From assembly GCA_024401695.1 (NCBI GenBank), contig JAKSKN010000008.1, positions 66,871 to 99,511 on the forward strand: a stretch of DNA of 32,641 bases, read 5' to 3'. Made by a program: the position numbers and the translations under genes. Numbering within the stretch: position 1 is the stretch's first letter; the number at the start of each line of letters is the position of its first letter. The notes below the pieces were generated by a model, which had not been told where the DNA came from, did no database searches, and was given only the letters and a program-made list of their open reading frames with translations. Shown here piece by piece: positions 8,189 through 30,576 of this stretch. Source of the DNA: Bacteroidales bacterium. Its GTDB lineage: Bacteria > Bacteroidota > Bacteroidia > Bacteroidales > UBA932.

Positions 8189-8200
8189 TTTGAATCGGAT

Positions 8201-10129: not shown

Positions 10130-10157
10130 AAGGTTTTTATAGGTTAAATTGGTTGTT

Positions 10158-10187
10158 GGGCGGCTGCCGGAAGCAGCCGCCCTTTTT
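10158..10187 (+). terminator. Intrinsic terminator after susD
   Basis: A perfect 10-bp stem (gggcggctgc pairing with gcagccgccc) with a five-base loop (cggaa) is followed directly by five T residues. It begins 28 bp after the susD stop and ends 10 bp before the start of the next co-directional gene. It should stop or attenuate transcription of the susCD message before the GH43-like gene. Confidence 0.9.
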
Positions 10188-10197
10188 AAAATTGATA

Positions 10198-11253: not shown

Positions 11254-11296
11254 CAATTTTAATCAGGCATTTCTTTTGCAGCGATATGCTATCGCT

Positions 11297-12510: not shown

Positions 12511-12531
12511 CTGACGCACTGCAAGTGTCAG
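12511..12531. terminator. Weak hairpin between convergent genes
   Basis: The segment ctgacgcact...agtgtcag forms an 8-bp stem with one bulged G and a three-base loop. It overlaps the stop codon of the minus-strand MATE gene and lies 38 bp after the stop of the plus-strand glycosyltransferase. There is no clear T tract, so it may be a weak bidirectional terminator or chance. Confidence 0.25.
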
Positions 12532-14231
12532 ATCTTGAGCGTCACCATATTCTGATTGAATATGTATTTGTAGTCGATATCCTTGCAGAAGGCGTTCGCC
12601 AGAGTGAGGCCGAGACCGATCCTGGAATCCGACGACTTCACGCATTCGACAGGATTGAAGGCCTTCCCGTCATCGTGTATGGAGATGTTCACGACCTCGC
12701 CTTTCACGGATGCGGCGAGGTCGATGGCAGTGGCGTTGCCGTGCCTGATTATATTGTTCACGAACTCCTCAGCACACACGGCGGCGACATTGACGGCATG
12801 GGCGCCGATCCCATTTGAGGACAGGAATGATTTCAGCGAGACGATGGCTTCGCTCAGGGCTTGCGAGGATGGAGCCAGGCTCATATCCAGCACCTTCGAG
12901 TCGTCACACGACGGTATGAGCAGAAATCTGCACAGCCTGCGGTCCCTGTGCCGCAGCACAATCTCCCATACAAGGATTGCAAGTCCGGTCACCACCTGAC
13001 CGACAAAGAACCCTATCCACCTGCCGCGCATCAGAAGGAAGAACACCATAGGCAGAAGGGTCTGGGCAATGGAAAGCAGCAGGGCAAGGCCATTTCTGCC
13101 ATAGAGCTGGAATGCAGGGAGCAGGAAGCAGAGCAATGCCTGCATCACAATGTTCAGAGAGAACAGAGGCAGGGCTTTCCGGACCATCTCAAGCCCGCTC
13201 CCTTCCTGTACGCCCAGAAGAGAGCCTATCTGTCCCGGGAGCAGCACAAGCAGAGCCGTGTATACTGCAAAACAGACGGCCATGAAGGCATAGCCGCGCT
13301 TCATAAGCAAAAGAAGTCCCTTGTCATCGTCAAGACCCTTGAGAATGGACCCGACCGGCTGTATCGTGCGCAGAGTACCAGTAAGGATGATCATCGAAAA
13401 TGCGAACAGCTGGATGCATACCGCCAGAGCCACGAGTCCGTCATCACCCAGGAAACGGCTTGCCGCATAGTTGTTGCCTACGTACTGGACAGACATCAGC
13501 ACGGTGGAGAAGAAGAGCGGCAGACCGATGGAAAATATCTTCTTCAGCTCGACATCCCCCGGTCTGGTCAGGTGCAGGCGCAGGGTGCCCTTCCTGCGGA
13601 AATGAGGCAGCATCATAATGATGCACACCACATACATCACACAGGTGGCGATCGCCGCACCGGCTATTCCCATAGAACAGTATCTGATGAATACGATGTC
13701 CAGCAGTATATTGAACACATTTCCTATGATGACGGCACGGGAAACCCTCTTAGGCTCACCGTCAACAGTAACAAACTGATTCAGGGTCAGCATCAGCAGC
13801 TGAGGCGTCGCAGAGATCAGAGTGACACGCATGAATGCCTCCGACATCGGGCGCAGGGTTTCCGACTGGCAGAGCAATGACGAGATGCGACCGAAGAACA
13901 GCAGTCCTGACGCAGTGAACAGCAAACCGAGCAGCAAGGAAAACTCGAGGGAAAACGAGAACAGCCTGTCCGCAGTCATTCTGTCACCCTTGCCCATCGA
14001 CATTCCCGCCAGGATAGTGGAACTGGCCACATACAGGCAGGTGACGGCAAAGAAAGCCTGAAGCAAAGGCTTGCTCAGGTTTACGGCCGCAAGGCCTTCC
14101 TCGCCTACAAGATGGCCGACGATGATGGCATCGACTATATTTGCGACCTGAGTCGCAGCGACCGTCAGGATTGAAGCCCACAGATACTGGTTGAAGGCCT
14201 TGTTGACAAGTTTTGCGTTTCTTTTCTGCAT
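12528..14231 (-). CDS. MATE-family exporter fused to an RsbW-like HATPase
   Basis: Residues 1 to about 430 form a MATE/MOP drug exporter with about 12 hydrophobic segments and typical loops (IVDAIIVGHLVGEEGLAAV near 32-50, NQFVTVDGEPKRV at 151-163). After a basic linker (RHRDRRLCRF), residues about 440-567 form a small GHKL ATPase like RsbW/SpoIIAB. Its N-box is AEEFVNNIIRHG (Glu489, Asn492/493), the G1 box is DDGKAFNP (520-527) and the G2 box is IGLGLTLANAF. RsbW-type proteins phosphorylate STAS antagonists and sequester a partner, classically a sigma factor. MATE exporters expel small molecules using Na+ or H+ gradients. It is the last gene of the NRPS operon, 19 bp after the acyltransferase gene. 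The likely role is export of the pathway product under control of the operon's STAS protein; the control is inferred. Confidence 0.92.
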   Translation of the reverse strand: MQKRNAKLVNKAFNQYLWASILTVAATQVANIVDAIIVGHLVGEEGLAAVNLSKPLLQAFFAVTCLYVASSTILAGMSMGKGDRMTADRLFSFSLEFSLLLGLLFTASGLLFFGRISSLLCQSETLRPMSEAFMRVTLISATPQLLMLTLNQFVTVDGEPKRVSRAVIIGNVFNILLDIVFIRYCSMGIAGAAIATCVMYVVCIIMMLPHFRRKGTLRLHLTRPGDVELKKIFSIGLPLFFSTVLMSVQYVGNNYAASRFLGDDGLVALAVCIQLFAFSMIILTGTLRTIQPVGSILKGLDDDKGLLLLMKRGYAFMAVCFAVYTALLVLLPGQIGSLLGVQEGSGLEMVRKALPLFSLNIVMQALLCFLLPAFQLYGRNGLALLLSIAQTLLPMVFFLLMRGRWIGFFVGQVVTGLAILVWEIVLRHRDRRLCRFLLIPSCDDSKVLDMSLAPSSQALSEAIVSLKSFLSSNGIGAHAVNVAAVCAEEFVNNIIRHGNATAIDLAASVKGEVVNISIHDDGKAFNPVECVKSSDSRIGLGLTLANAFCKDIDYKYIFNQNMVTLKI

Positions 14232-14250
14232 TTTCAGGAAAAGGCTGGGA

Positions 14251-15513
14251 TCATTTCAATGAAAAGGCCGGGGCCTTGGCTTCAGAGCTGTAGAGAAGGT
14301 CGAAATCCAGATTCAGGTTGACTATTTCCTTGAGGAACGCATTGAAATATACGTCTTCGCGCCAATCCTGCATGAATACGACATAGAACCACCCGTCGGC
14401 GGCCGTCACCTCCATCAGAATGCCTATGCCTACCGGTTCGCCCGCAGGGAACAATGCCTGGATGTGCCTGTCGCACGATCCGAATGACTTCTTGCCCGAA
14501 TAGCTGATGGCGAAGGTGGTCTGCGCGAAGAAATCGGCCATTCCCTGCCCCACCGCACCGAACTTGTCCTGAAGCGTCGGAAGGCCGTTCACCGCTTCGC
14601 AGGCGGCCTTGATTCCGGACACGGTATGCAGGAGGATATTAGGGTCGGAATAATAGAGTATGTTGCCGCGCATTATGGTATTCTGCCTTTCAAGCGGCAT
14701 ATCCCTCATCGTATGGTCATATACCAGAGGAAGGGTGGTCACCATATTATGGTGCGACTTCTCCGCCCCTACGGCGCTGCGGTAATCACAATACACCTGG
14801 CCGATGATAGGGTCCTGGGCATCAGGATGCAGTTTGTCGATGGCACGGCTCATCAGAAGGGAGAGAATCGTGTTCGGGGTGCCGTCACTGCTCTTGCAGA
14901 GGGACATCAGCTGCTTCTCATTGATACGGATGTAATGCAGATGCTGTTTCGAGCGGACTACAAGTCCCTGGTCTTCGAGACGCAGGGCCTTCGGCAACGG
15001 ATCCGGCATAGGAAGAAGGTCATCGATCTCCGGGAGCGGCTGGGTGAACGGGTCAAGATATTCCGCCGGGTCGACCGGTGTACCGGCAAGCCAGACTCCC
15101 GGCATATCGACATCCTCATTGTAACGCATCTTGCAGTAATAATACATCAGCGTATGCAGCATCGGGCCGCGGCCACGGCCGTCGAATATTGCGTGCACGT
15201 TGTTGAAGAAGATGTCCCGCCTGAAATAAGTCAGCGCGAAAAGATGATAGTTTGACTCGCTTCCGCACAAGGTCATAGGGACATCGGATTCCTTTACGAC
15301 AAGAGGAAGTTCATTGTCTTCCAGCGTATAGCCCCTGTCATCGGCGACGATGCGCTTCTTGAGATATGGGTAACGCGTCATCGTGATGTCCAGCGCCTTG
15401 CGGAGCACCTCACCGTCAACCTCATCCTTCATATGGATGATATATCGGAACGATTTGGAGACATTCTCGTTCAGACAGTAGTAATCAAGTGTGTCACAAA
15501 AGAAATTCTGCAT
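14251..15513 (-). CDS. Free-standing condensation-superfamily acyltransferase
   Basis: Protein of 420 residues in the CoA-dependent acyltransferase/NRPS condensation superfamily. The second half of the HHxxxDG motif is kept as HAIFDG (His107, Asp111), while the first His is replaced by Val. SFRYIIHMKDEVDGEVLRKALDITMTRYPYLKKRI matches the N-terminal lobe of alcohol acetyltransferase-like condensation proteins. The ATG at 15513 is chosen because it lies 10 bp after the previous stop; an upstream in-frame ATG at 15570 would overlap that gene by 47 bp. The catalytic His is intact, so an acyl or aminoacyl transfer to an amine or alcohol is plausible. It may act on the A-PCP-TE protein or on the peptide product. 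Substrates are unknown. Confidence 0.78.
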   Translation of the reverse strand: MQNFFCDTLDYYCLNENVSKSFRYIIHMKDEVDGEVLRKALDITMTRYPYLKKRIVADDRGYTLEDNELPLVVKESDVPMTLCGSESNYHLFALTYFRRDIFFNNVHAIFDGRGRGPMLHTLMYYYCKMRYNEDVDMPGVWLAGTPVDPAEYLDPFTQPLPEIDDLLPMPDPLPKALRLEDQGLVVRSKQHLHYIRINEKQLMSLCKSSDGTPNTILSLLMSRAIDKLHPDAQDPIIGQVYCDYRSAVGAEKSHHNMVTTLPLVYDHTMRDMPLERQNTIMRGNILYYSDPNILLHTVSGIKAACEAVNGLPTLQDKFGAVGQGMADFFAQTTFAISYSGKKSFGSCDRHIQALFPAGEPVGIGILMEVTAADGWFYVVFMQDWREDVYFNAFLKEIVNLNLDFDLLYSSEAKAPAFSLK

Positions 15514-15514
15514 G

Positions 15515-15523
15515 ACTGTAAAT
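15515..15523 (-). repeat. Copy 1 of the 9-base element ATTTACAGT before a start codon
   Basis: On the minus strand, ATTTACAGT follows directly after the TAA of the A-PCP-TE gene and ends one base before the ATG of the acyltransferase gene. The same nine bases occur at 17993-18001 in the equivalent position of the preceding junction. It may act in translation initiation or be chance. Confidence 0.4.
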
Positions 15524-17986
15524 TTATTGTTGCCTGTTTTTCTGTTCATTGAAAAGATTGTCCGCTTCAAGATAGAGAAGTTCGGTTTCCATAATATTCC
15601 TGATGCGGTTGCTGATGACCTTGCGCCCGGTTTCCGACATCATGCCGTCGTGATGTTCAGGGATATCATATATGGTCAGCTGATGCGGCGGAACGAATTT
15701 CTCGATGCCTCCCGCCAGCTCGCGCACGATATGGGCGAAGTATGTACGCTGCGATGTCTGGATGTCATCGGCGATTTTCGTCGCCTTGAAGAAATGGACT
15801 CTTCCCGTGTACGGGCGGGGCACGAAATCAGCCATATTCCGTCCCACACAGCGTGAATTCTCTATGATGGTCTCGATCATACCGCGTCCGCGGAAATCCG
15901 CGAAGAGCGGGCTCTTTTCATAATATTCCCTGTTGACGTGCTCCACCTGGTTGGCAATCACGAGGCGGCGGTCATAGTCGCTGTTCATTATGTACGCGTC
16001 GATGAGGATCAGGCTGCCCATATCCTCCCCCGACTCCTTGAGCTGGCACGCCATCTCGTATGCGATCATACCGCCATAGCACCAGCCTCCGAGATTGTAC
16101 GGACCGTGCGGCTGGCGCATCTTCAATATTTCGATGTATTTGGCCGCGATGGCGGGTATTCCCTCACGGATGTCATCAGGGTGGAAGATATTGTATTGCT
16201 CTATGACAGAGAACGAACAGCAGTCCTTGATATCGTTTGCAAGGGCATAATATGCCTCACTGCCCGTGCTGCCGGTGTGGATAAACACCAGAGGTGCCTT
16301 GTCTTCGTGTGCCGAGTAGACATAATCGAGAGGTATCTCCGAAGGGGCGCTTTCAAGCGTCCGGGCAATGCCGCGGACGGTCGGATTCTCATAGATGCGC
16401 GCAGGCGGCACTTCCTTGTGCAGAGCCTTGCCGATTTCGCCGCAGAGGCGCATGATAAGGATGGAATCGCCTCCGAGTTCGAAGAAGCTGGAATCCGCGC
16501 CCACGTCTTCGATGCGGATCGTGAGTATCTGGCATATTATCTGAGCAACCTTGAGCTCTATGTTGCCCTCGAGAGGCTTGAGGTCCGAACGGTCGTTCTG
16601 CGGCAGAGGAAGGTTCTTCCGGTCTATCTTGCCCGTGGCATTGATCGGGAACTTGTCCAGACGGACATATCGCAGCGGTACCATATAGTGAGGGAGCTTG
16701 TCCCCGAGGAAACTGATGATGTCTTCCTTCGCCACCTCTGCGGTGTCCGCGGTATAATAGCCGCACAGATACTTGCTTCCGCGGCCGTTGTCAACGCCCT
16801 GGACGATTGCGCCCGTGATTCCCGGCATACGCTTCATCACGCTCTCGATCTCACCCGGCTCAACCCGCTGCCCGTTGATCTTGAGCATCCAGTCCTTGCG
16901 GTTGACATAATGGATTATGCCTTCGGCATCGATACGCGCCACGTCACCGGTATGCAGCCAGCCGTCCTTGTAAAGGGCGGCAGTCCGCTCAGGATCCTTG
17001 AAATAGCCCTGGCAGAATGAGCCCTTGAGCACCAGTTCGCCGTCGGTGTCAGGCGGGACGTCGTTGCCATTCTCGTCAACGACGCGGGCGACGTTGTGGT
17101 TGATTCCCCGGCCAAGAGGCGCAGAGTCCGACATTTCAGCAACTTCAAAGGACATCACGGCGCCACCGGTCTCGCTCATTCCGAACATATTGTACAGCGC
17201 ATACCCGTCCTGGGAATGCTGGGTGGTCAGTCGTTCGCCGCCGGTGATCACAGCCCTCAGGGATTTGCTGCGGTTGTGGAACAGCGTCAGCACCGCCGGG
17301 CTGATATGGCATACCGTAATGCGGTTGTCATCGATATAATACTCGATGGCCTTGGCGCTTGCCTTGTAGGCATCGCTCAGGATGTGCACGGTGCCTCCAC
17401 CGTACAGCACGTCGAAATTGCCCAGGATAGTGACGAAATAGAACGGCGAAGCAGCGCCGAAGCGCGTGTTCTCATCGTGCGCGATGGCGGCCGGCACGCG
17501 CGGGTTGTTGTCAATGAGCGTGGAATGGTTGTGCAGGATGCCTTTCGGCTTGCCCGTACTGCCCGACGTGTAGATGAGCATTGCCCCGTCGCTTTCTTCC
17601 GGATATTGGAACGTGAAACCGGACTGGTCCGGCTGCGCCTGAATCCCGGAGAGGACATCCTCGTCGATGGTCAGCGCACTGTCGCAGTGGCCAACGATAT
17701 AGTCGATGCGTTCCTGGGGGAATTTGTCGCCCATCGGCACCGCAACGCAGCGTGAAAGCCATATTCCTATCTCCACCGCCATATATTCGGCGCAAGGAGG
17801 CAGTTTTACGGTGATGAATGACTGCACCCCTATGCCACGGCCCGAGATGAACGAAGCGGTCTTCTCGGCCAATGCAAGGATGCTTCCGTAAGTCGTCTTA
17901 CGGACACCTTCCCGGTCTACCACTGCCACCCGTTCAGGATGATTCAGGCAGTTCTCCACTATTCTCCTGATATATGCTGACTCCAT
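15524..17986 (-). CDS. NRPS-like A-PCP-thioesterase protein
   Basis: The 820-residue product has three domains. The adenylation domain (about 5-460) has the P-loop-like YTSGSTGKPKG at 139-149 and catalytic Lys453 in TGKIDRK. The PCP (about 475-545) carries the phosphopantetheine serine Ser508 in FFELGGDSI. The alpha/beta-hydrolase thioesterase (about 562-790) has Asp663 and His778/His779 in IPEHHDG. The adenylation pocket lacks the Asp that binds the alpha-amino group: the FDxx motif reads FYFV. YGPTE is also replaced by FGMSETGG, so a carboxylic, aryl, hydroxy or keto acid is more likely than an amino acid. The thioesterase elbow is GWCYGG, with Cys636 in place of serine. Start at ATG 17986, 16 bp after the NRPS stop; an earlier in-frame ATG would overlap the NRPS by 62 bp. 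It may supply an acyl cap or handle a separate acyl product. Confidence 0.9.
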   Translation of the reverse strand: MESAYIRRIVENCLNHPERVAVVDREGVRKTTYGSILALAEKTASFISGRGIGVQSFITVKLPPCAEYMAVEIGIWLSRCVAVPMGDKFPQERIDYIVGHCDSALTIDEDVLSGIQAQPDQSGFTFQYPEESDGAMLIYTSGSTGKPKGILHNHSTLIDNNPRVPAAIAHDENTRFGAASPFYFVTILGNFDVLYGGGTVHILSDAYKASAKAIEYYIDDNRITVCHISPAVLTLFHNRSKSLRAVITGGERLTTQHSQDGYALYNMFGMSETGGAVMSFEVAEMSDSAPLGRGINHNVARVVDENGNDVPPDTDGELVLKGSFCQGYFKDPERTAALYKDGWLHTGDVARIDAEGIIHYVNRKDWMLKINGQRVEPGEIESVMKRMPGITGAIVQGVDNGRGSKYLCGYYTADTAEVAKEDIISFLGDKLPHYMVPLRYVRLDKFPINATGKIDRKNLPLPQNDRSDLKPLEGNIELKVAQIICQILTIRIEDVGADSSFFELGGDSILIMRLCGEIGKALHKEVPPARIYENPTVRGIARTLESAPSEIPLDYVYSAHEDKAPLVFIHTGSTGSEAYYALANDIKDCCSFSVIEQYNIFHPDDIREGIPAIAAKYIEILKMRQPHGPYNLGGWCYGGMIAYEMACQLKESGEDMGSLILIDAYIMNSDYDRRLVIANQVEHVNREYYEKSPLFADFRGRGMIETIIENSRCVGRNMADFVPRPYTGRVHFFKATKIADDIQTSQRTYFAHIVRELAGGIEKFVPPHQLTIYDIPEHHDGMMSETGRKVISNRIRNIMETELLYLEADNLFNEQKNRQQ

Positions 17987-17992
17987 ATCTGA

Positions 17993-18001
17993 ACTGTAAA
18001 T
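17993..18001 (-). repeat. Copy 2 of the 9-base element ATTTACAGT before a start codon
   Basis: On the minus strand, ATTTACAGT lies one base after the TAA of the large NRPS gene and six bases before the ATG of the A-PCP-TE gene. It is identical to the element at 15515-15523. Confidence 0.4.
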
Positions 18002-18002
18002 A

Positions 18003-21000
18003 TTAACGTTTGAAGTCGTTGTCAAAGACTCCGAGCCCCTGGAGGCAGCGGAGATATTTCTCAATGTAGTCCCAGGTGGTGAATGACCATCTGAATCCCA
18101 GACGGAGGAGCACCTGGGCAGTGTATGCCTTGGTTTCCCATCCGTTCACGACCTTGAAGGTCCCGTCATTCTCCTCCTTGTAAGCCACGAGGCTCTGCAC
18201 CAGCTCGGACTTCTCCGGGTCCTGCATAGCCTCTGCAAGGCGACGCTGGAACTCAGCATTCTCCACCCGCTCCACGTGCACACCGATGCCGTTCAGGCAG
18301 TCTATGGTGTCACCATAAGGCGGCCAGTGGACGTTGCCCGGCTGGAAGACCGTACAGCCGTCCGGCGTAAGACTCAGGCGCACGATTGCATCGGCGACCT
18401 CATTGATCGGCGAGAACTCTGAGTAAGCGCAATCCTTTTCATAAGGGATGCAGCCGATCGTCTGATAGGCCTTCAGCGCAGCCATTGCATTGTTGCTGCG
18501 GAAGTTGATCTGGAACTCACCGTCGGTCGAGCGGGCGGACAGATTGCCCAGACGCATTATCTTGCCTTTCAGGCCGCGGTTCCTGACTGCATCGAGCACG
18601 GCGCGCTCGGCAAGGAACTTTGATGCGGTATATTTCGACGTAAGCTGCTGGCCATAGTAAAGGTCTTTCTCCGTAAGGAAATGAGGTGCCACAGGAGTGT
18701 CGCTGACAGTAAGGCCTGCGACGCTTCCGGTCGAAGTCTGGATGAACCTCGCTCCCGTGCGCACACACAGGTCTATGCAGTTCTGGCAGCCCTTGATATT
18801 GATGTCCTCGATATCGGTGCCGGCAGAGAAGTGCTTCACGTTGGCGGCGCAGTTGAACACGACATCGATATGCCTGTCGAAATTCTCGAACGACCCTGCA
18901 TCCGTCACATCCCCGTCCATCACGACGATGCGCTCCCCGAACTGTTCCTCATATTTCTGTCCGAAATAGTAGAACAGCAGCGTGCGCACCCTGCTCTCGG
19001 CGGAAATGGACTTGCCGCCGCGCACGAAACAGTAGATGTGAGGCACATCCTCACGCTCGATGAGATTGTGGAGGACGTGAATGCCGAGGAAGCCCGTCGC
19101 TCCTGTCAGGAACACATCTCCCATCTTCTCATAGCACGGTCCGTTGCGGAAGGTGTCAAGATTGTTCGCTGCGAGCAGTTCGTCGAGCTGGCTGTAATCA
19201 TAAGCCTCGATCTCGTCGATCATAGGGAGGTTCCTGCGCTTGGACTCATTCGCATAGAGTTCAGGCTTGAGCAGCTGTGCAAGAAGCCTAGGAGTGGCAT
19301 TGTCGAACACGGTCTTGTATACCAGCGTGTATCCGGCCTTTGCGGCTTCCGCGATGAGCTGCATCGCGACAAGCGACGTTCCGCCCATTTCGAAGAAGTT
19401 GTCACCCGCGCCCACCTTTTCCAGCTTCAGGATCTTGCTGAATATGTCGCAGAAAGTCTTCTCGACGTCATTCTTCGGGGCTTCGTATCCGCCGCTTCTG
19501 AATTCAGGGAGAGGCAGACGCTTCACATCGGTCTTGCCTACAGGGGTCAGAGGCATCTCATCAAGACGGACGAAGATGCCCGGGACCATATATGGGGTAA
19601 GCCTCAGCGACATATTCATCCTGAGGATTTCCTCGAATGCCTCGGCAGGCATATCCGCAACCGTCTCATCGACGGTATAATAGCCGATGAGCTTGTCGAT
19701 GTTGCCGAGTTTCTTGATGACTGCCACGCACTGGCGCATCCCGGGCTGCTGGGCCATCACGGACTCGATCTCTCCAAGTTCTATGCGGAGTCCGTTCAGC
19801 TTGACCTGATTGTCGGTACGGCCCATTATTATGATATTGCCGTCCTTCGTCCACATTGCATAGTCTCCGGTGCGGTAGATGCGCTTGCCCTGCCACTCGA
19901 TGAAGGTCTCGGCAGTGCGTTCCGGCATATTGTTGTAGCCGCGCGCAAGGCCTATGCCTCCGATGCAGAGTTCGCCCATCACACCGACAGGGAGTTCGTT
20001 GCGGTCGCAGTCAAGCACCTGATAGGTGTAATTTGTGAACGGCTTGCCCACGTGGATCTCGCGCGTGCCGTTGAGCACACCGGCGCTGCTGCCCATAGTG
20101 GTCTCGGTAGGACCGTATGTGTTGATGATGTAGACATCCATCTTCTCCAGTTCGTCCAGAAGGGCGCCCGGAAGTTTCTCGCCACCGGTCACGACACATT
20201 TCATCTGATCCCTGACAAGGTCGTAGTAGTCCTTGAACTCAAGGTTGACGGCAAGTCGCGACGGTGTGCCGCTGATGGTCTGCGCGCCCGTGCGGCGGCA
20301 GAGCTTGACCATCTCGACAGGGCTCATTATCTCATCCTCGTTGGCAAAGACGACGGTGTCGCCGTTGAACACCTGCACGCCGATCTCTCCGACTGAAAGG
20401 TCGAACGACACGGTTGACTGGCAGAGTCCGAAACGGTTGGCATTGCTGTCTGAGCCGAAGTTGGTGTCGCTCTTGTAGAAGGTGAGGAACGATGCGGCTC
20501 CGAGATGCTCTATCATCACACCCTTCGGGCGGCCCGTCGAACCGCTGGTATAGATGAGATACGCCAGATCGTGAGGGTCAACCTTCACGTCGAGGTTGCC
20601 GTCAGGCAGGGCTGCGGCCTCCGCGAGAAGTTCCATCACGTCGATGGCACGGCCCGGATAGCTTGCTGTCCTGTCGGAAGTGGTTATGACAAAGCGGCCC
20701 TCGGAATCATCGAGGATATATTCGATGCGGTCAGCCGGATATTCAGGATCCATAGGGATGAACGCGCCTCCGCATTTCATAACCGCGAACATAGCGGTAA
20801 GATAATAGCTGCGTCGAGGCAGGAGAAGCACCACCCTGTCACCCTTCTGCATTCCGCGCGCCATCAGGGCGCGGGCGATACGGTTGGCCTCCGAGTTGTA
20901 CTCACGGTAGGTCATATCTCGGTCGCAGGCCATCAGCGCGAGAGCATCAGGCGTCTTGACAGCCCACTGCTCTATCCCTTCGTGGAACGTGCGGATCGGG

Positions 21001-24000: not shown

Positions 24001-27000
24001 TTGAAAACAGCGGCGGCATTGTCCGGATATTGCCTTGCAGCCTTCTGGAACAGCGACAGAACCGTCTCTCCGGCATCCTCTCCGGCACACGCCGGACCGT
24101 TTTTCAGGTTGAAGGAATCAAGAAGAGCCAGCATACCGTCATCGCTGATGTTGACATCGCCCAGCTTTTCCTTCACCAGCAATTCCCCCACCACGCACTG
24201 TACGGCATCGGCAAAGCCTCTCATCATATCCTCGGAGAAAAGGCTTTCATCATACTGTACATTGATCACGCCACCTTTCCCGGCACTGCCTTCTATGAGC
24301 ACGGACACAGGGAACTTGGCCTTCTGTATCTCGAGCTTCTGCAACTCGATCACGCCCTTGCCGCAAGCATAGCTGTTGAGCACACCAACCTGGTATGCAT
24401 ACATCAGATGGGCTGAATAACCGAATTTCTCCACGATACGGCCATAAGGATAATCCTCGTTCGCAAGGGTATCCACGAATGTTCCCGCCACCTGACGCAG
24501 ATAGTCGTCCACAGGCATATCAGGATCAACCCTGCCTACCAGAGGCAGCGTGTTCACGAACATTCCCAGGGTATTTGTCAGACGGAGGTTGCTCCTGCCG
24601 TTTGAAACGGTGCAGATGCCGACCGTGTCCTCACAGGTATATTTGCTGACGGCGACCATCACGGCAGCCAGGTACAGCGAAGCCGGCGTGATGCCCAGGG
24701 CCTTGCACTTCGGCTGGACGGCCTGAATATCCGTAGGTCTTTTCAATTCACCCTGGGTGTGGTTTTCGTCCGCATCATATCTGTCCGGCAGAAGGGCGGA
24801 CGCCTCTTCTATCCGGCTCAGCTGATCCGCAAAGAACCGCTCGGTGTCATCGTCGGCCTTCTGGTCGGTCACAAAGTGATAGTAGTCATATTTCTCCTTC
24901 TCGGGGCTTTCTCCATCAAGCGCCTTGCACAGCTGCCTGTAAAATATGTCCAGAGAGCCACCGTCCATCACGAGATGATGGTAATCGGCAAGCAGATGGA
25001 CTGCAGAAGGGGTTTCAACGATCTCAAAACGGTAGAGAGGCCCTTCGTTCAGGTCGAAAGGACGGACGAATGACTTCTTCTCCCTCTCAAGTTCCTGCTC
25101 AGACATACTGACTATAGGCAGGTCGTAAGGCTTCCTGTCCATCGGGCACTGGTAGAAGTCGCCCTTGTTATCGCTCTGGAAATGAGTGTTTATGTACGGA
25201 TGCGCCTCAAGTACCTTTCCCAAGGCGGACTTCAGCTGGATTGCAGTGATGCCCTGAGGCAGGGTGAGGCATTCAGGTATGTTGTACTGGATGTCATCCG
25301 GATTGGCGGCACACTCGGAGAAGATGCCGAGCTGGGAGAACGAAAGAGGTGCGGACTTGATCTCTCCGCCGGCTTCATTCTCATTGCCGATGCGCTTCAG
25401 CCTGGCTGCCATCCCCTTGATTGTCGGATAACGCAGGATGTCAGACACTGAAAGGGCTGCCTCCATCCTGCCTTTCACCATCACGGACATTCGGATGGCA
25501 AGCAGAGAGGTCAGTCCGGCGCCGAGCAGATTGGTCCCGGTGCCGAAATTGGTGCTGCCTATTATTTCCGCAGCAATATCATACAGGGCCTGTTCGTCAG
25601 CCGTGGCCGGCATAAGCTTTTCCTCATCGGAAAGCGCAAGGTCAGGCTGAGGAAGTGCCTTGAGGTCAGTCTTGCCGTTCGGGGAGACCGGCATCTTATC
25701 AAGTTCCATAAAGATGGTCGGAACCATATAATGGGTGAGGCTCCGGCCCATCTGCTCCTTGAGAGTGTCGGCACTGACCTTTTCCCTGACGGTATAATAC
25801 GCGACGAGATGGTCGTGGCCATCCACGTTCCGGATCATTGCGACGCCTTCCTTGACCTGCGGTTGCCGGCAAAGGACGGTTTCCACCTCCCCAAGCTCTA
25901 TGCGGAGGCCGTTGAGCTTGATCTGATGGTCCTTGCGCCCGAGGATGATGACCTCGCCCTCAGCATTCCAGTATGCATAGTCCCCGGACTTATAGCAGCG
26001 CTCCCCATCGTAGTCGATGAACGCCTCGGCGGTCTTTTCCGGAAGGTCATTGTATCCGGCGGCAACGCCCAGGCCACCGATCAGAAGTTCGCCTGTCACG
26101 CCTACAGGCAGTTCGTTCAGGTCATCGTCCACCACATACTCCCTGACATTCAGCAGCGGCCGGCCGATCGTGATGCGGTCGGAATGCGTCAGTTCCTTGC
26201 CGTTGCAGCTTACGCTTATCTCCGTAGGGCCATAGGTATTGAAAAGCCGGGCGGACGGAGCCAGGGCCTTGACCTGCGGAAGCAGGGTCGGAGGATACTT
26301 CTCACCACCCAATACGATGAATCTGCATTTCGCAAATGCCTTCTGGAAATCCGGCAGGTCGAGGAACATCTTCAGTCGGGAAGGAGTACCGCTGAAGCCG
26401 TCCACTCCGGTAGTGAGCATAAGGTCGGCAAGCGCCTGCGGGTCATTCACCTGGTCTTCGTCGGCAAAGACGAGCGTCATACCGTTGAACAGCGAGGCAC
26501 CTATCTCCTTGAGGGAGAGGTCAAAGCTTACGGTCGTTATGCAGAGCATCGTACTGCAGTCGCCGACAAGGGCGTGGAAATGGCGGTTCTCCTCGTGGTC
26601 GGTGAGATAATTGCAGATGCCGGTATGACGGAGCATCACGCCCTTCGGACGTCCGGTGGAGCCGGATGTGTAGATGAGGTATGCAAGCGAATCGGAATCC
26701 TGACGGACGGACGGGTTCTGGACATTGCCGCCCGCTGCAAGCAGTTCTTCCACGTCGAGAGCGCGGTCACCGTATCCGGCCATCTTGTCTTTTGTGGTGA
26801 TGACGTAGCGGGCGTGGCTGTCTTCCGTGATAAGCCTGATACGCTCTTCAGGATATTCAGGGTCGCAAGGGATGTATGCGGCACCAGCCTTCATCACGCC
26901 GAACATTGCAAGCAGATGCCAGCTCTTGCGCGGAAGGAGCAGGCAGATGCGGTCGCCCGGAGTCACTCCCCTGTCGATGAGCGCGTGGGCGAGGATGTTT

Positions 27001-28397
27001 GCCTTTTCGTTGAAGAGGCGGTATGTCAGAGTCTCATTGCAGGCGATGACCGCCGTGGTGTCCGGAGTCTTCTCCGCCCAATATTCGATACAGTTGTGGA
27101 AAAGCGGGAAGCGGACGGCCGACGGGTCGATGCAGGTCTGCCGCAGTGCGGCGACCTCTTCCTTCTGGCCCCGGCTCATTATGGATGCGGCGAGCAGCCT
27201 TTCATCGGGATTCTCAAGGAAATGAGAGATGACGGCATCCATCGATTCCGCGAATCTGCCCGCCATATCTGCAGAATACCTTGCAGTGTCGTAATTGATC
27301 ACGATCGCAGGCCTGCCGTCGATCTTGTTTATCGTGATGGTGAACGGGAACGTGTGGCTGTTCATAACCATACGCTCCTCCACGACTTCCTCTCCATTCA
27401 CGTGGAAGGCATTGCCAAATGTCCCATACTGATATGTGAACCGGACATTCTGCTCAATGCCATAGTCGCCGGCAAGGGCAGAGAACGGATATTCCTCGTG
27501 GCTGCGGGTTTCCAGGAACGACTCGCGGACGCCGTGGATGAACTCACGGATGCTGGAATCACCGATACGGCATACGAGAGGCAGGGTGTTGACGAACATT
27601 CCCACCACCCCTTTCGACATAGGGTTGAGACGGCCGTTGCTGATTGTGGTGATACAGATGTCCTTCGTATTGGCATAGCGGCTGATGGTGTAGAAAGCCG
27701 CTGCGATGAACAATGCCGACGGAGCGGTGCCGAGCGCCTTGGCCCTTGACATAACATCCGGCGCACTGACAAAACGCAGGTGTTCGGCGTGAGGGCCCGC
27801 CTCTCCATTCAGGTCGGCCGGAAGCGTGGTGGATGTCACGCCTTCCCCGAACAACTTGTCAAAATATGCCTTGTGGTCTGTCGTGCAGGCCTGCTGCGCC
27901 TCTGCGAAATCCGCATATGAGTCCGGCTCGTCCACAGGCTCCGACCCTTCAAGGGCAGCGCAGATCTCATTGATGATGATGCTGAGGGAGGTACCGTCAT
28001 ATACGAGATGATGGAAGTCCAGAAGCAGGGTCACACCGGACGGCGCATCAAGCACCTCCGCCCTGTAAAGCGGACCTGACGAGATGTCAAATGAACGGAT
28101 GAAACCCTCCTTCGCCGACTTGACATCCTTATCCTCAAGTCTCGTGACACCGACCTCGGCGCGACACCTGTCAGCATACACCTGGACTCCCCTTCCGTCC
28201 CTGTCCTCAAAATGCGAGAACAAAGCCGGATGGCGCTCCAGAACCTTCCGTACCGTTTCCGCAAGGGCGTCAGGAGAGGCTATGTGGGAAAACAGGACTG
28301 CGTGTGGATTGTTATATCTGAGATTTTCAGAGTCGATGATACAGTCGATATACACACCTTGCTGTGCGTATGTGATGGGGGAAGTTTTTCCGCTCAT
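18003..28397 (-). CDS. Trimodular non-ribosomal peptide synthetase with terminal reductase
   Basis: Single 3464-residue chain, C-A-T-C-A-T-C-A-T-R. C1 (about 5-400) has HHLVYDG at 129-135, C2 (about 1015-1420) HHLVMDG at 1140-1146, and C3 (about 2040-2445) HHLVADG at 2164-2170; all are intact. A1 (about 430-920), A2 (about 1440-1925) and A3 (about 2465-2965) each have YTSGSTGxPKG, YGPTE and the final lysine (Lys909, Lys1915, Lys2955). Carrier serines are Ser964 and Ser1972, both in GLTS, and Ser3008 in GGTSL. The reductase (about 3090-3464) has the NAD(P)H motif GATGFLG at 3099-3105 and Y3256-x3-K3260. Release by reduction would give an aldehyde or alcohol. A leading C domain suggests the first residue is N-acylated. 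No epimerase or methyltransferase domain is seen. My reading of the specificity codes is DLKSVGTVSK (A1), DAMFSGGIFK (A2) and DLGSVGTMGK (A3). A2 resembles aliphatic codes; A1 and A3 are not assigned. Confidence 0.96.
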   Translation of the reverse strand: MSGKTSPITYAQQGVYIDCIIDSENLRYNNPHAVLFSHIASPDALAETVRKVLERHPALFSHFEDRDGRGVQVYADRCRAEVGVTRLEDKDVKSAKEGFIRSFDISSGPLYRAEVLDAPSGVTLLLDFHHLVYDGTSLSIIINEICAALEGSEPVDEPDSYADFAEAQQACTTDHKAYFDKLFGEGVTSTTLPADLNGEAGPHAEHLRFVSAPDVMSRAKALGTAPSALFIAAAFYTISRYANTKDICITTISNGRLNPMSKGVVGMFVNTLPLVCRIGDSSIREFIHGVRESFLETRSHEEYPFSALAGDYGIEQNVRFTYQYGTFGNAFHVNGEEVVEERMVMNSHTFPFTITINKIDGRPAIVINYDTARYSADMAGRFAESMDAVISHFLENPDERLLAASIMSRGQKEEVAALRQTCIDPSAVRFPLFHNCIEYWAEKTPDTTAVIACNETLTYRLFNEKANILAHALIDRGVTPGDRICLLLPRKSWHLLAMFGVMKAGAAYIPCDPEYPEERIRLITEDSHARYVITTKDKMAGYGDRALDVEELLAAGGNVQNPSVRQDSDSLAYLIYTSGSTGRPKGVMLRHTGICNYLTDHEENRHFHALVGDCSTMLCITTVSFDLSLKEIGASLFNGMTLVFADEDQVNDPQALADLMLTTGVDGFSGTPSRLKMFLDLPDFQKAFAKCRFIVLGGEKYPPTLLPQVKALAPSARLFNTYGPTEISVSCNGKELTHSDRITIGRPLLNVREYVVDDDLNELPVGVTGELLIGGLGVAAGYNDLPEKTAEAFIDYDGERCYKSGDYAYWNAEGEVIILGRKDHQIKLNGLRIELGEVETVLCRQPQVKEGVAMIRNVDGHDHLVAYYTVREKVSADTLKEQMGRSLTHYMVPTIFMELDKMPVSPNGKTDLKALPQPDLALSDEEKLMPATADEQALYDIAAEIIGSTNFGTGTNLLGAGLTSLLAIRMSVMVKGRMEAALSVSDILRYPTIKGMAARLKRIGNENEAGGEIKSAPLSFSQLGIFSECAANPDDIQYNIPECLTLPQGITAIQLKSALGKVLEAHPYINTHFQSDNKGDFYQCPMDRKPYDLPIVSMSEQELEREKKSFVRPFDLNEGPLYRFEIVETPSAVHLLADYHHLVMDGGSLDIFYRQLCKALDGESPEKEKYDYYHFVTDQKADDDTERFFADQLSRIEEASALLPDRYDADENHTQGELKRPTDIQAVQPKCKALGITPASLYLAAVMVAVSKYTCEDTVGICTVSNGRSNLRLTNTLGMFVNTLPLVGRVDPDMPVDDYLRQVAGTFVDTLANEDYPYGRIVEKFGYSAHLMYAYQVGVLNSYACGKGVIELQKLEIQKAKFPVSVLIEGSAGKGGVINVQYDESLFSEDMMRGFADAVQCVVGELLVKEKLGDVNISDDGMLALLDSFNLKNGPACAGEDAGETVLSLFQKAARQYPDNAAAVFKDKKYTYRQLDDLTDRIGSLIYDKVKGCGKDEPVVSILIPRNEYMFILPLASMKAGCAYQPLDPSYPRERLNFMVKDADAALLIEDPGLCGLIDGFDGEVMCTDALEKEGGRELPANPLTPQNLFILLYTSGSTGVPKGVMLEHQNLVAFISWYRRYYDLRPEHNVAAYASFGFDACMMDMYPALTSGATVHIIPEDIRLDLTALNGYFEANDITHSFFTTQVGVQFLQNEENHSLKHLSVGGEKLVSVDPAVGYTFHNGYGPTECTIFSTVMPVLRKEQNIPIGKPVGELCCYVMDKQLHRLPVGAAGELIIAGRQVGRGYLNRPDKTAEAFFTLNGERAYHSGDIVRYRQDGNIEFVGRRDGQVKIRGFRIELKEVEAVIREFSGIRDVTVQAFDSPDGGKFIAAYVVGDGRVDIDALNAFILEQKPPYMVPAATIQIDRIPLNVNQKVDRKALPKPEPKAQTGSDATAAPLNALEVELKSIIAPILNTENFSITDVLGYVGLTSISSIKLAALIYKKFGIQVNARSLAKNATLQSIENQILDSWMNGGAAASGSVSVQKGSTQPVGDAISEAPLTFPQQGVYMDCQMNPDTTMYNMPMVLEFPSETSPEALKSAVLKVVGSHPSLSCNFFQTDGGVVMRRSSGDRFDVPVRSADVDELEDIKKAFVRPFNLELDTLVRAEICSVTGGPLVLLIDMHHLVADGASVDIVIKQILSVLEGRDIDAESCPYLQFAAAQNEKAVQGGLEESKAFYDEMFASYEAAANVPADRTSTGEGLPQHAVTAIPESLLKLSLPEGVTQAHFWFAAFNYALSRFANTKDVYTAFISSGRGDIKVVDTVGMFVNTLPCAVHVKDQTVREFIKETSDAFYGSLDHENYPFARIASDYDFKGCASYAYQMGVLSAYTVGGKEVVRSSVSLSKAKIPFSIFIQNVKGVPSVDAEYDDSMYSRELALHFTESVIAVAGHFAADMDALVKNVSIMSERQRLEVEGMHSVNEDMSFPIRTFHEGIEQWAVKTPDALALMACDRDMTYREYNSEANRIARALMARGMQKGDRVVLLLPRRSYYLTAMFAVMKCGGAFIPMDPEYPADRIEYILDDSEGRFVITTSDRTASYPGRAIDVMELLAEAAALPDGNLDVKVDPHDLAYLIYTSGSTGRPKGVMIEHLGAASFLTFYKSDTNFGSDSNANRFGLCQSTVSFDLSVGEIGVQVFNGDTVVFANEDEIMSPVEMVKLCRRTGAQTISGTPSRLAVNLEFKDYYDLVRDQMKCVVTGGEKLPGALLDELEKMDVYIINTYGPTETTMGSSAGVLNGTREIHVGKPFTNYTYQVLDCDRNELPVGVMGELCIGGIGLARGYNNMPERTAETFIEWQGKRIYRTGDYAMWTKDGNIIIMGRTDNQVKLNGLRIELGEIESVMAQQPGMRQCVAVIKKLGNIDKLIGYYTVDETVADMPAEAFEEILRMNMSLRLTPYMVPGIFVRLDEMPLTPVGKTDVKRLPLPEFRSGGYEAPKNDVEKTFCDIFSKILKLEKVGAGDNFFEMGGTSLVAMQLIAEAAKAGYTLVYKTVFDNATPRLLAQLLKPELYANESKRRNLPMIDEIEAYDYSQLDELLAANNLDTFRNGPCYEKMGDVFLTGATGFLGIHVLHNLIEREDVPHIYCFVRGGKSISAESRVRTLLFYYFGQKYEEQFGERIVVMDGDVTDAGSFENFDRHIDVVFNCAANVKHFSAGTDIEDINIKGCQNCIDLCVRTGARFIQTSTGSVAGLTVSDTPVAPHFLTEKDLYYGQQLTSKYTASKFLAERAVLDAVRNRGLKGKIMRLGNLSARSTDGEFQINFRSNNAMAALKAYQTIGCIPYEKDCAYSEFSPINEVADAIVRLSLTPDGCTVFQPGNVHWPPYGDTIDCLNGIGVHVERVENAEFQRRLAEAMQDPEKSELVQSLVAYKEENDGTFKVVNGWETKAYTAQVLLRLGFRWSFTTWDYIEKYLRCLQGLGVFDNDFKR

Positions 28398-28424
28398 ATT
28401 TTAAGAATGACTAAGTGGCCGTTG

Positions 28425-28727
28425 CTATTTGATTATGAACATCCTGTCGAAATGGGTAACCTTGAGTATCTCCATGATATTCTCATTGACACCCGACAAT
28501 GTGACCTGCTGGCCCTGTGCAGCACTGGCCTTGCGCAGGCGCAGAAGCACGCGCAGACCCGAGCTGGCGATATACTCAAGCGCATTGCAGTCTATGATCA
28601 TCGGCTTCGACGCCATCCCTTCAAGTTCCTTGACGGTCGGTTCAGCCTGCTCGGAGGCCAATGTGTCAAAACTTCCGCTCATTACGACGGTTACGTTTTC
28701 AGGATTTTCTTGTACTTTGATTTCCAT
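28425..28727 (-). CDS. STAS-domain anti-sigma antagonist (RsbV/SpoIIAA-like)
   Basis: Small cytoplasmic protein of 100 residues forming one complete STAS domain. The diagnostic DCNALEYIASSGLRVLLRL contains the Ser55-Ser56-Gly57 phosphorylation site. In partner switching the unphosphorylated form binds an RsbW-type kinase and frees the kinase's other partner; phosphorylation by that kinase inactivates it and a SpoIIE/RsbU phosphatase restores it. Both other types occur in this operon: the phosphatase gene ends 19 bp upstream, and the kinase-like domain is fused to the exporter in the last gene. The NRPS gene starts 27 bp downstream. Confidence 0.95.
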   Translation of the reverse strand: MEIKVQENPENVTVVMSGSFDTLASEQAEPTVKELEGMASKPMIIDCNALEYIASSGLRVLLRLRKASAAQGQQVTLSGVNENIMEILKVTHFDRMFIIK

Positions 28728-28746
28728 AGTGATTATTGTTTTATGA

Positions 28747-30432
28747 TTATGATTCAGATTCGATGAATTTCACGCACAGCATCGTGATGTCGTCACTCTG
28801 CGCCGCCCCGGAAGCATGCTGTCTGACGCGTTCCAGCACTTTTCCAATGACCCCGGAAGCGCTGCCATCGGATACGGATTCCGCCGCCTGCATCATCGGT
28901 TCAGTTCCGAATTCACGTCCGTCGGCATCCATTGCCTCCGTCACGCCGTCAGTATAGAGCAGCAGCGTATCCCCCGGCAGCAGAACCGTGGATTTTGAGA
29001 TGAACCTCTCGTCATCGGATATGCCGAAAGGCATATTGTCGGACTCCGGGAAGAATTCAACCCTGCCGTCCCGCACAAGTACGGGGGCATTATGACCGGC
29101 ATTGACATACTCGAGCCTGCCGCTGGCCAGGTCAAGGCAACCGAACCAGAATGTGATGAAACGGCAGTTTTCATTGTCGGCGCAAAGGGAGGCGTTGATC
29201 TGTCCGGCTGCGTCGGAAGCAGCGCTCCTTGCCACGACGTTGCGGAAAAGATAATGGGTCGCAGCCATGAACAGCGATGCCTGGACACCCTTGCCGCTGA
29301 CATCGCCTATGCAGAAATAGAGCGTATTCCCCATAATGAAATAGTCATACAGGTCACCGCCGACTTCGCGCGCCGGGTACAGCGTGGCCGACAGGTCCAG
29401 TCCCTTCCGCTCCGGGAACGGAGGGAACACGTGCGGTATCAGTTCTTTCTGCGCGGCCGACGCGAGCTGCATCTCATTGTCCATCACGGCTTTCTCCTTC
29501 TCTATGAGATGCTGCCTGCGGACAAACGGCCTCGCCACGTGTTTCACCACGAAGATGATGGCAAGCACCAGCAGGATTGACATCAGCAGGATTATCACGG
29601 CAAGAGAAATCAATTTCTGGCGGACCTCCCCGTCGATGACATTCCTGTCGGCGGAAAGAATCACCTTCCAGCCGAGATGTTCTATTTCAACTTCCCTGGT
29701 GATCAGCTCATCCGGTGAAAGTTCCAGTATATAGTCGTCCGGTGCGACCAGCATTGCGCCCTTACCGTTGTAGATGCTGATATCTATGTCTTTCCTGATC
29801 TTGTAACTTGTCACGAAGGATGTGACATAACTCAGGGGCACCCACGAATATGACACACCGATATGCTCTCCAAGGTTGTCAAAGACAGGCGCTACATAGC
29901 ATACGATGTCAAGCCCGCTGATATCTCCCGTGGTCGGGTCGCTCCACATCGACATTTCGCTGTCATAGCATTCCTGCCAATGATATCTCTCATCAGGTTC
30001 ACCATCATATATCTTTGTCCCCGACAGGATGTTGCGGTCCTTGTCGAAGTACGCATACGGTTCGTAGAACCTGCCGTCGGCGCCATACCCTTTCTGGAAT
30101 ATGATCGACATCCCCAGAATGTCGTTTATGGAATGGACTGTGCGGTAAAGCACGGAATCAAGGTCACTTCTGTCTTCTACAAGGGAGGATGCGATATTGA
30201 CCATGGTATTGCTCGCATCTTCAATGCGCAGCATCCTCTGCTCGATGTTCTGGGTGATGGCTACCAGGTCGTCGGTGATGCGGCTGTCAAGCATCCCCTC
30301 GTAATCCCGGCGTATGCGGCCCGCCATTATCACAAGCGCCGCCGTAGAGATAAGCAGAACCGCAGACGCGACGTAAATCGTCATTCTGACCTGCAGGCCT
30401 CCCTTTGTCGTTATTTTGTCATACCATCCCAT
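28747..30432 (-). CDS. Membrane sensor with SpoIIE/RsbU-type PP2C phosphatase
   Basis: A 561-residue phosphatase that should dephosphorylate the STAS protein encoded next. A membrane helix at about 17-38 is followed by an extracytoplasmic region (about 39-272) that looks like a dCache sensor (IIFQKGYG..., then DPTTGDISGLDIVCYVAPVF, then HIGVSYSWVPLSYV). A second helix lies at about 273-298, then a linker coil (RRQHLIEKEKAVMDNEMQLASAAQKELIP). The PP2C domain (about 345-558) has REVGGDLYDYF (Asp360), IGDVSGKGVQASLFMA (Asp377), NAGHNAP, YTDGVTEAMD (Asp495) and SDDITMLCVK (Asp547/548), so the metal ligands are intact. It is the first gene of the operon and its likely signal input. The ligand is unknown. 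A second in-frame ATG at 30384 would remove the cytoplasmic tail only. Confidence 0.95.
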   Translation of the reverse strand: MGWYDKITTKGGLQVRMTIYVASAVLLISTAALVIMAGRIRRDYEGMLDSRITDDLVAITQNIEQRMLRIEDASNTMVNIASSLVEDRSDLDSVLYRTVHSINDILGMSIIFQKGYGADGRFYEPYAYFDKDRNILSGTKIYDGEPDERYHWQECYDSEMSMWSDPTTGDISGLDIVCYVAPVFDNLGEHIGVSYSWVPLSYVTSFVTSYKIRKDIDISIYNGKGAMLVAPDDYILELSPDELITREVEIEHLGWKVILSADRNVIDGEVRQKLISLAVIILLMSILLVLAIIFVVKHVARPFVRRQHLIEKEKAVMDNEMQLASAAQKELIPHVFPPFPERKGLDLSATLYPAREVGGDLYDYFIMGNTLYFCIGDVSGKGVQASLFMAATHYLFRNVVARSAASDAAGQINASLCADNENCRFITFWFGCLDLASGRLEYVNAGHNAPVLVRDGRVEFFPESDNMPFGISDDERFISKSTVLLPGDTLLLYTDGVTEAMDADGREFGTEPMMQAAESVSDGSASGVIGKVLERVRQHASGAAQSDDITMLCVKFIESES

Positions 30433-30439
30433 AATACTA

Positions 30440-30456
30440 CAAAATTAATAATTTTG
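30440..30456. promoter_or_regulatory. 17-base perfect palindrome just upstream of the SpoIIE-like gene
   Basis: CAAAATTA-A-TAATTTTG is a perfect inverted repeat around a central A. It lies 7 bases upstream of the ATG at 30432. Each arm also matches the Bacteroidetes -7 consensus TAnnTTTG, one on each strand. The minus-strand box has no TTTG at the ideal spacing (nearest at 14 bases), and would put the transcript start almost at the ATG. It could be an operator, a promoter box, or chance in AT-rich DNA. Confidence 0.45.
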
Positions 30457-30524
30457 TCTTTCAAATAAAACAACCTGGCAATTAAGAATGACTTATATGA
30501 CGGGACACGTGGCGCGTCCAGGAT

Positions 30525-30555
30525 TTTGGCGATAACATAAATTGTGCTATATTTG
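30525..30555 (+). promoter_or_regulatory. Bacteroidetes promoter for the exported protein / M13 pair
   Basis: TTTG (30525-30528), exactly 19 bases, then TATATTTG (30548-30555): a complete match to the Bacteroidetes -33/-7 consensus. Transcription should start a few bases downstream, giving a short leader before the ATG at 30577. Confidence 0.8.
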
Positions 30556-30576
30556 ATTGATAATAGCATCTGCCCT

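Follow-up and report, generated by a model that had tools for sequence, protein, structure and literature searches.

Partner-switching genes and an exporter-fused HATPase domain in a nonribosomal peptide synthetase operon of Bacteroidales

The window analysed here, a 32,641-nucleotide stretch of contig JAKSKN010000008.1 from a Bacteroidales bacterium (assembly GCA_024401695.1), carries six co-directional genes on its minus strand between positions 12528 and 30432. They encode a dCache-SpoIIE phosphatase, a STAS protein, a nonribosomal peptide synthetase (NRPS), an adenylation–thiolation–thioesterase (A-T-TE) protein, a condensation-like protein and a MATE-HATPase. Taking the probable ATG starts, the intergenic gaps measure 19, 27, 16, 10 and 19 bp. 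A preliminary description of this DNA had proposed a tight six-gene operon at this place. The shared strand and the gaps of 10–27 bp bear this out, and Pfam matches confirm its identification of the SpoIIE phosphatase, the STAS protein, the trimodular NRPS, the A-T-TE protein and the MATE-HATPase. In the direction of reading, the genes are:

28747 to 30432, minus strand: dCache/PDC sensor with a SpoIIE (PP2C-type) serine phosphatase, 561 amino acids (aa; Pfam PF07228 2e-48, PF22673 7.4e-8, PF02743 7.1e-7)
28425 to 28727, minus strand: STAS protein of the anti-sigma-antagonist type, 100 aa (PF01740 1.8e-15; TIGR00377 over cut-off)
18003 to 28397, minus strand: NRPS with the domain order C-A-T-C-A-T-C-A-T-R (C, condensation; R, reductase), 3464 aa, ending in a thioester reductase (Pfam: three C, three A, three PP-binding)
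15524 to 17986, minus strand: A-T-TE protein, 820 aa (Pfam A, PP-binding, Thioesterase; the start at 17986 is the first ATG, chosen)
14251 to 15513, minus strand: condensation-superfamily-like protein, 420 aa, with a HAIFDG motif at residue 107
12528 to 14231, minus strand: MATE transporter (about residues 1–440) fused to an anti-sigma-kinase-type HATPase (about 442–567), 567 aa (MatE 2.5e-21, HATPase_c_2 1.3e-11)

The close spacing suggests that the six genes form a single transcript. An internal promoter and terminator had been named as what would split the block, and a consensus scan of the region gave a divided answer. No terminator-like site lies within the intergenic gaps (21 in the region versus 12.9 expected). 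Two weak promoter-like matches (9/12) on the operon strand overlap gaps, at 28773–28746 before the STAS gene and at 14259–14230 before the MATE gene, so internal transcription starts are possible; promoter-like sites numbered 25 in the region versus 13.7 expected.

The phosphatase, the STAS protein and the fused HATPase carry the sequence features of a partner-switching module: the PP2C aspartate site, a single-domain STAS with its serine, and anti-sigma-type HATPase boxes. The metal-site aspartates are kept in 35 of 35 distinct SpoIIE domains from the loci compared. Ser55 in ASSGLR is the predicted phospho-acceptor of the STAS protein, and the serine is kept in 33 of 33 distinct STAS domains. 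The HATPase has its N, G1 and G2 boxes, and its predicted model shows an anti-sigma-kinase fold, with a match to an anti-sigma-F factor solved with its antagonist. This fold match makes the STAS protein the likely partner of the fused HATPase; no HATPase domain is among the Pfam matches of the 561-aa phosphatase itself. Through the fusion, the HATPase is linked to export in this lineage. No MATE-HATPase fusion is described as part of a partner switch in the available text of the open-licence PMC literature surveyed, and the exporter-borne HATPase is the new, testable element of the arrangement.

The three domains and their key residues are shared with RsbU-RsbV-RsbW and SpoIIE-SpoIIAA-SpoIIAB. 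Unlike those systems, the window has its HATPase fused to a transporter and has no SigB/F/G-type sigma factor over the cut-off. Across the host assembly (2.65 Mb, 97.2% complete, with the window on its contig 70), the SigB/F/G model TIGR02980 gave 13 matches at E ≤ 1, none over the cut-off (best 113.6 versus 234.35 bits), and a SigB-type output was therefore rejected. Within the six operon proteins, Pfam found no DNA-binding or sigma-factor domain. The earlier statement that no sigma factor is present thus stands for the operon and, in the genome, for the SigB/F/G type; sigma factors of other types may be targets. The best PDB sequence match of the phosphatase is Rv1364c (PDB 3ke6, 1.7e-14), which we take to hold phosphatase, kinase and STAS in one chain. 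In the window, these parts are instead distributed over three proteins, with the kinase-type domain on the exporter.

Condensation-domain HHxxxDG motifs stand at residues 129, 1140 and 2164 of the NRPS. Its reductase is marked by NAD_binding_4 at residues 3097–3338 (E 2.2e-34), TGATGFLG at 3098 and YTASK at 3256; the preliminary description had the three modules right and overlooked this terminal domain. The C-A-T modules and an R domain with cofactor and catalytic motifs place the locus among reductase-terminated NRPS clusters, a family of which is known from the human gut. It shares with them the starting C domain, the short module chain and the terminal reductase, and differs in its additional A-T-TE and condensation-like proteins, its Bacteroidales host and its switch-linked exporter. 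Peptide aldehyde and pyrazinone chemistry has been described for such clusters (PMC7586950), and the predicted NRPS product here is an acylated or capped tripeptide freed as an aldehyde by the reductase. Rumen genomes contain 5,346 NRPS clusters, with expressed NRPS clusters in Prevotella (PMC8241843); the main text of that report uses none of the words 'sigma', 'transporter' and 'reductase'.

The TE motif of the 820-aa protein, GWCYGG at residue 634, has a cysteine in the usual serine position. Cysteine TEs are known from NRPSs that form beta-lactones and beta-lactams. The same motif is found in the TEs of three related genomes (G295, G297 and G298) and in a related G300 protein. The 420-aa protein had been called a condensation-type acyltransferase. 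Its HAIFDG motif, invariant across five aligned family members, is the main ground for that name: the protein has no Pfam match, one of the five members matches Condensation at E 0.1, and profile comparison with hhalign is weak (probability 2.2). Its fold model is poor (pLDDT 51.5). The G298 cluster has an additional 362-aa open reading frame (ORF) between the A-T-TE and condensation-like genes (L096:3129-4217).

The arrangement is real and conserved, and similar clusters occur in many gut relatives. A contig-collection scan confirmed 97 MATE-HATPase relatives, of which 80 were kept. Their titles name Bacteroidales, Prevotella/Prevotellaceae, Muribaculaceae and Bacteroides/Bacteroidaceae, with one 'Bacteroidetes', one 'uncultured bacterium' and six loci under Candidatus names as exceptions; the closest (72–77%) are three metagenome-assembled genomes from horse faeces and Candidatus Minthomonas equi (Bacteroidales). 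These named relatives, with the SusC/SusD genes beside the operon, agree with a Bacteroidales host, and the window probably comes from an equine gut. A MATE-HATPase search in the genomes behind 50 of these loci returned 73 rows, or 72 places, one gene being split in two. Fifty of these, chosen by hand, were fetched with flanks of at most 19 kb. The places left out include four with a whole or partial switch (L018, L029, L051, L067) and seven without one in range (L023, L024, L026, L028, L037, L084, L086). Annotation of neighbours relied on HMM profiles built outward from domains of the window, which may overlook STAS proteins that have diverged.

The window's six-gene order recurs exactly in genomes G295 and G297, and G298 has the same genes on one strand, with STAS and SpoIIE placed after the MATE-HATPase. 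Other orders are SpoIIE, STAS, MATE-HATPase, NRPS (G302); STAS, MATE-HATPase, NRPS and then SpoIIE on the opposite strand (G299, G305); STAS, NRPS, MATE-HATPase, HATPase, SpoIIE (G306); and MATE-HATPase, NRPS, SpoIIE-HATPase, STAS (G307, G308, G319, G334, G266). In G323:C5, G320:C23, G336:C40 and G325:C20, the order is SpoIIE-HATPase, STAS, NRPS and a MATE without HATPase. A locus in another family of the order (L189:4088-19717, L190; G255:C119) has an RND pump set, a C-A-C-A-R NRPS, STAS, SpoIIE-HATPase and a phosphopantetheinyl transferase (PPTase) on one strand; the pump was read by eye from ORF starts, and no MATE was found at that locus. Altogether, 21 clusters have SpoIIE and STAS near the NRPS: 16 with a fused MATE, four with an unfused MATE, and G255. 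Each has at least one HATPase, which for the 16 fused-MATE clusters is a consequence of the search route. The label 'free-standing HATPase' was dropped for these neighbourhoods, since most such hits are C-terminal domains of SpoIIE proteins and few are truly separate.

Linkage was counted at 47 fused MATE-HATPase places, namely the window, G266, the second G000 copy (G000 being the host genome) and 44 fetched places; the remaining six of the 50 have no fused HATPase. C and A domains lie on the same strand within 19.5 kb at 29 of the 47. Within that distance, SpoIIE is found at 21 of the 29 NRPS-linked places, STAS at 17 and both at 16; the 18 places without an NRPS have SpoIIE in three, STAS in two and both in two. 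Among the 29, both genes are present at 13 of 17 with a reductase versus 3 of 12 without. When at least 15 kb is available on both sides, 7 of 15 NRPS-linked loci have the pair. For all 80 scan loci with flanks of up to 10 kb, the figures are 10 of 43 NRPS-linked versus 1 of 37 others; in a layout like that of the window, a flank of this length stops short of the phosphatase. These loci were found through the MATE-HATPase, so their counts are biased, and the Fisher tests treat related loci as independent; a 295-genome sample of the order is free of the search bias. MATE-HATPase fusions without an NRPS nearby occur at L004:9972-11723 and 17 further places, one being the second copy in the window's genome.

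The preliminary description knew of no pathway with this layout, a view contradicted by a published locus. In the rumen archaeon Methanobrevibacter ruminantium M1 (Leahy et al. 2010), mru0066 is a serine phosphatase, mru0067 an anti-sigma antagonist, mru0068 an NRPS, mru0069 a MatE protein and mru0071 a second phosphatase, and mru0066–mru0071 were already proposed to sense the environment, regulate NRPS expression and serve export (PMC2812497). Phosphatase, STAS, an NRPS with a starting condensation domain and MatE follow one another there as in the window, which has two extra genes between the NRPS and the MATE. The locus differs in its archaeal host, its two NRPS modules and its second phosphatase. 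The terminal domain of mru0068 is a thioesterase in the text and a thioester reductase in the legend of Figure S8. A HATPase is present on the window's MATE; for mru0069, the available text of PMC2812497 does not state one. A further locus of the archaeon, mru0512–0516, encodes an acyltransferase, an antagonist, a PPTase, a phosphatase and an anti-sigma kinase (PMC2812497). The layout thus has a precedent from 2010, and the exporter-borne HATPase appears to be the new element.

The switch set is complete, no SigB-type sigma factor is over the cut-off, and the set is kept near reductase-ended NRPSs through rearrangements; a switch dedicated to the pathway is therefore likely. The earlier claim that the circuit controls the pathway itself is upheld to this extent, and its product-feedback part is not supported (see below). 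Our preferred reading, to which we give a probability of roughly 0.4, is that the dedicated switch, with its kinase half on the exporter, matches export of the acylated or capped tripeptide aldehyde to an outside cue. The periplasmic dCache domain would sense the cue and activate the SpoIIE domain, which would dephosphorylate the STAS protein at Ser55. In this form, STAS would then dock on the cytoplasmic HATPase at the MATE end and change its state. As the cue fades, the HATPase would spend ATP to rephosphorylate STAS and release it, so that export of a reactive product would be tuned to an environmental signal. STAS proteins are known to act through anti-sigma kinases (PMC8256260), and in Streptomyces a HATPase protein controls antibiotic production by a mechanism left unexplained in that report (PMC9137472). 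The fuller claim, that STAS binding to the MATE-built HATPase and phosphorylation by it toggle efflux of the NRPS product on an extracellular cue, as a sigma-free and post-translational control widespread in gut Bacteroidales, is more doubtful and is offered tentatively.

STAS and fused-HATPase sequences may diverge together. With the MATE contribution removed, their distances correlate at 13 loci (r 0.27, p 0.049), at 11 loci that have, or are likely to have, a HATPase on SpoIIE (r 0.48, p 0.003) and at all 24 (r 0.33, p 0.0002); the loci were hand-picked for a fused MATE-HATPase and a STAS. STAS also tracks the MATE once the HATPase is removed (partial r 0.25, p 0.094 for the 13; 0.21, p 0.074 for the 11; 0.28, p 0.0004 for the 24). 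Since such tests also run high among related sequences, STAS–HATPase co-evolution is merely suggestive.

Beside this tracking of the MATE, several observations weigh against switch-gated export. Four clusters with an unfused MATE carry the HATPase on the phosphatase, and the G255 locus has an RND pump and yielded no MATE; the switch can therefore accompany the NRPS without a HATPase on the exporter. A second HATPase, additional to the MATE-borne one, is present in seven of the 21 switch-bearing clusters, and 18 MATE-HATPase loci have no NRPS nearby.

Linkage of the switch to the NRPS is itself incomplete. SpoIIE, STAS or both are lacking within range at 13 of the 29 NRPS-linked MATE-HATPase loci, where some contigs end early. 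With the same proviso, G300, G315 and G348:C29 combine a reductase-ended NRPS and a MATE-HATPase with neither SpoIIE nor STAS in range, G301:C12 has STAS only, and G326:C27 has an NRPS and an unfused MATE with neither. At L043 (Prevotella sp. MA2016), an NRPS-linked MATE-HATPase has SpoIIE close by and no detected STAS. In the order sample, a condensation domain is found at 1e-30 in 21 of 295 genomes, on 25 contigs, of which three (G000, G266, G255) have both SpoIIE and STAS at a distance of at most 20 kb from that domain; both genes were required, and the STAS list is complete at its threshold. A reductase accompanies the NRPS on 7 of the 25 contigs, and the switch is present in 3 of these 7 versus 0 of 18 (Fisher p 0.015), which suggests, on small numbers, that the link is with reductase-ended NRPSs. 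The co-occurrence of switch and NRPS anticipated in the preliminary description is thus seen in the order kept by G295 and G297 and in the 16/29 versus 2/18 contrast. What was named there as refuting it, NRPS-bearing relatives that regularly lack these genes, is partly borne out by the 13/29 incomplete loci and the 3/25 order-wide figure.

The closest competitor, rated somewhat less probable than export control, has the dedicated switch control synthesis, through transcription or through NRPS activity by protein binding, with the MATE merely carrying the kinase. It corresponds to the interpretation in the preliminary description once product feedback is taken away. The unfused-MATE and RND loci favour it, since the SpoIIE-STAS-HATPase set is kept with reductase-ended NRPSs under a MATE-HATPase, an unfused MATE (four) or an RND pump alike, and regulation of NRPS expression was the proposal made for M. 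ruminantium. A sigma-free switch acting on an enzyme is also known: SiaABC of Pseudomonas aeruginosa is a partner switch (PMC7647112) in which SiaC activates the enzyme SiaD (PMC8457831). SiaABC resembles the window set in pairing a PP2C phosphatase with a kinase that share an antagonist-like target protein, and its output, an enzyme rather than a sigma factor, is a diguanylate cyclase, whereas the six window proteins have no GGDEF match in Pfam. Synthesis control is weakened by the lack of a DNA-binding or sigma-factor domain in the operon and of a SigB/F/G protein over the cut-off in the genome, and it leaves the fusion to an exporter without a reason.

It is unlikely that the cluster's phosphatase and STAS instead feed a genome-wide switch, with the cluster as an input to a global response. 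The host does have a second dCache-SpoIIE (C1:110793; L005) and a second HATPase-STAS pair beside a RelA_SpoT-domain protein (L008:8748-10560), both in favour of this reading. The cluster set, however, is self-sufficient and stays together through rearrangement, and its STAS and SpoIIE co-diverge strongly (partial r 0.83, 10 loci). At L008 (G000:C1, about 447 kb), the free HATPase-STAS pair is followed directly by the RelA_SpoT gene and preceded by an S41 protease and an AMP-binding enzyme. This arrangement may connect partner switching with (p)ppGpp in this genome.

Slightly less probable still is that the phosphatase's sensor reads the pathway's own product, as first suggested. Sensor, synthesis and export are encoded together, and dCache domains bind small molecules (PMC9540692). 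Between the window and G295/G297, however, identity falls from 82–92% in the A domains, 88–90% in R and 87–90% in TE, through 78–79% in MATE, 76–83% in STAS, 67–71% in the HATPase and 60–66% in the SpoIIE catalytic domain, to 41–42% in the sensor. The A-domain pocket residues are identical in the window, G295, G297 and G298 save for one Ile/Val change in the second A domain, where the script left position 278 unresolved in G297, G298 and G302. Pocket positions were placed by motif anchors of the PheA code and served solely for comparing relatives, with no substrate assigned. Despite near-identical pockets, the G298 sensor has no tblastn match at 1e-5 to the window sensor, and the G298 phosphatase has a dCache/PDC match in Pfam.

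The sensor divergence is weak evidence against feedback, because it lies within the range of other dCache-SpoIIE reciprocal-best pairs. Their catalytic/sensor identities (%) are 85/50, 67/49 and 60/40 for fast sensors and 76/65, 57/50 and 54/47 for slow ones, a range that includes the window's pairs with G295, G297 and G302 (60–67/43); an unusually fast-evolving sensor was accordingly rejected. The NRPS-cluster pair G305–G299 has a conserved sensor (87/85). These comparisons faintly suggest that the sensor is under no added constraint from a shared product, with which product sensing is still compatible. An apparently different third module in G302 was withdrawn, since the G302 contig stops short of the third A domain of the NRPS and the 47% hit belongs to the first A domain. 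The AI-2 (CahR) receptors among dCache domains are defined by the PctA-equivalent residues R126, W128, Y144, D146 and D173 (PMC9540692). A by-eye reading of the alignment of the window sensor with its relatives did not support AI-2 as the ligand, the Y144 equivalent appearing to be non-Tyr in the window.

That the regulatory genes stand beside the NRPS by chance or as passengers is very improbable: the pair is lacking on 22 of the 25 NRPS contigs of the order sample, and SpoIIE-rich relatives (26 genes in one of 41 genomes; 67, among the matches listed, in one of 21) make chance proximity more likely, but the pair is kept across many gene orders, mostly on the same strand and with intact active-site motifs, it is found at 16/29 NRPS-linked versus 2/18 other loci, and the host has only three SpoIIE matches in its 2.65 Mb.

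If the fused HATPase receives the STAS signal, as switch-gated export would have it, a metabolite exporter would become a kind of output new to partner switching, and an external signal could set when gut bacteria release reactive peptides, with no transcriptional step. Many natural comparisons exist within the family, since some members bear the HATPase on the exporter, some on the phosphatase and some on both. Were synthesis the output instead, the loci would still suggest a means of activating otherwise silent gut NRPS clusters.

The cluster is accessory in its genus and family, since a same-genus genome (G008) has no condensation, STAS or SpoIIE matches and two same-family genomes (G126, G224) have no condensation domains. 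Across the 295 genomes of the order, 39 have a MATE-HATPase match at 1e-20. The HATPase part, beyond residue 520, is reached by only five matches in four genomes (two in G000, one each in G266, G028 and G237), and the G1 motif is not intact in G028 and G237. SpoIIE repertoires are large in five Prevotella/Prevotellaceae genomes (G310, G312, G323, G317, G314; 15–26 phosphatases each) and in G066 and G174 of the order sample (47 and 67, among the matches listed).

Upstream, the operon is bounded by a divergent gene (30544–31152) and an M13-peptidase-like ORF. A candidate start region lies directly before the phosphatase gene:

30433 to 30466, minus strand: possible operon start region with TAATTTTG, a -7-like element of the Bacteroidetes type, weak and read by eye, with a partial -33 element at the usual spacing

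The full Bacteroidetes consensus promoter pattern has no match on the operon strand in this start region. A full match (TTTG...TAnnTTTG) at window positions 30525–30555 on the plus strand faces the divergent gene and not the operon; at least one match to this pattern arose in 18 of 100 shuffles. Downstream, the operon meets a convergent glycosyltransferase, followed by GH43, SusD, SusC and hybrid two-component genes. Together these form an ordinary polysaccharide-use set (979–12472) that adjoins the cluster.

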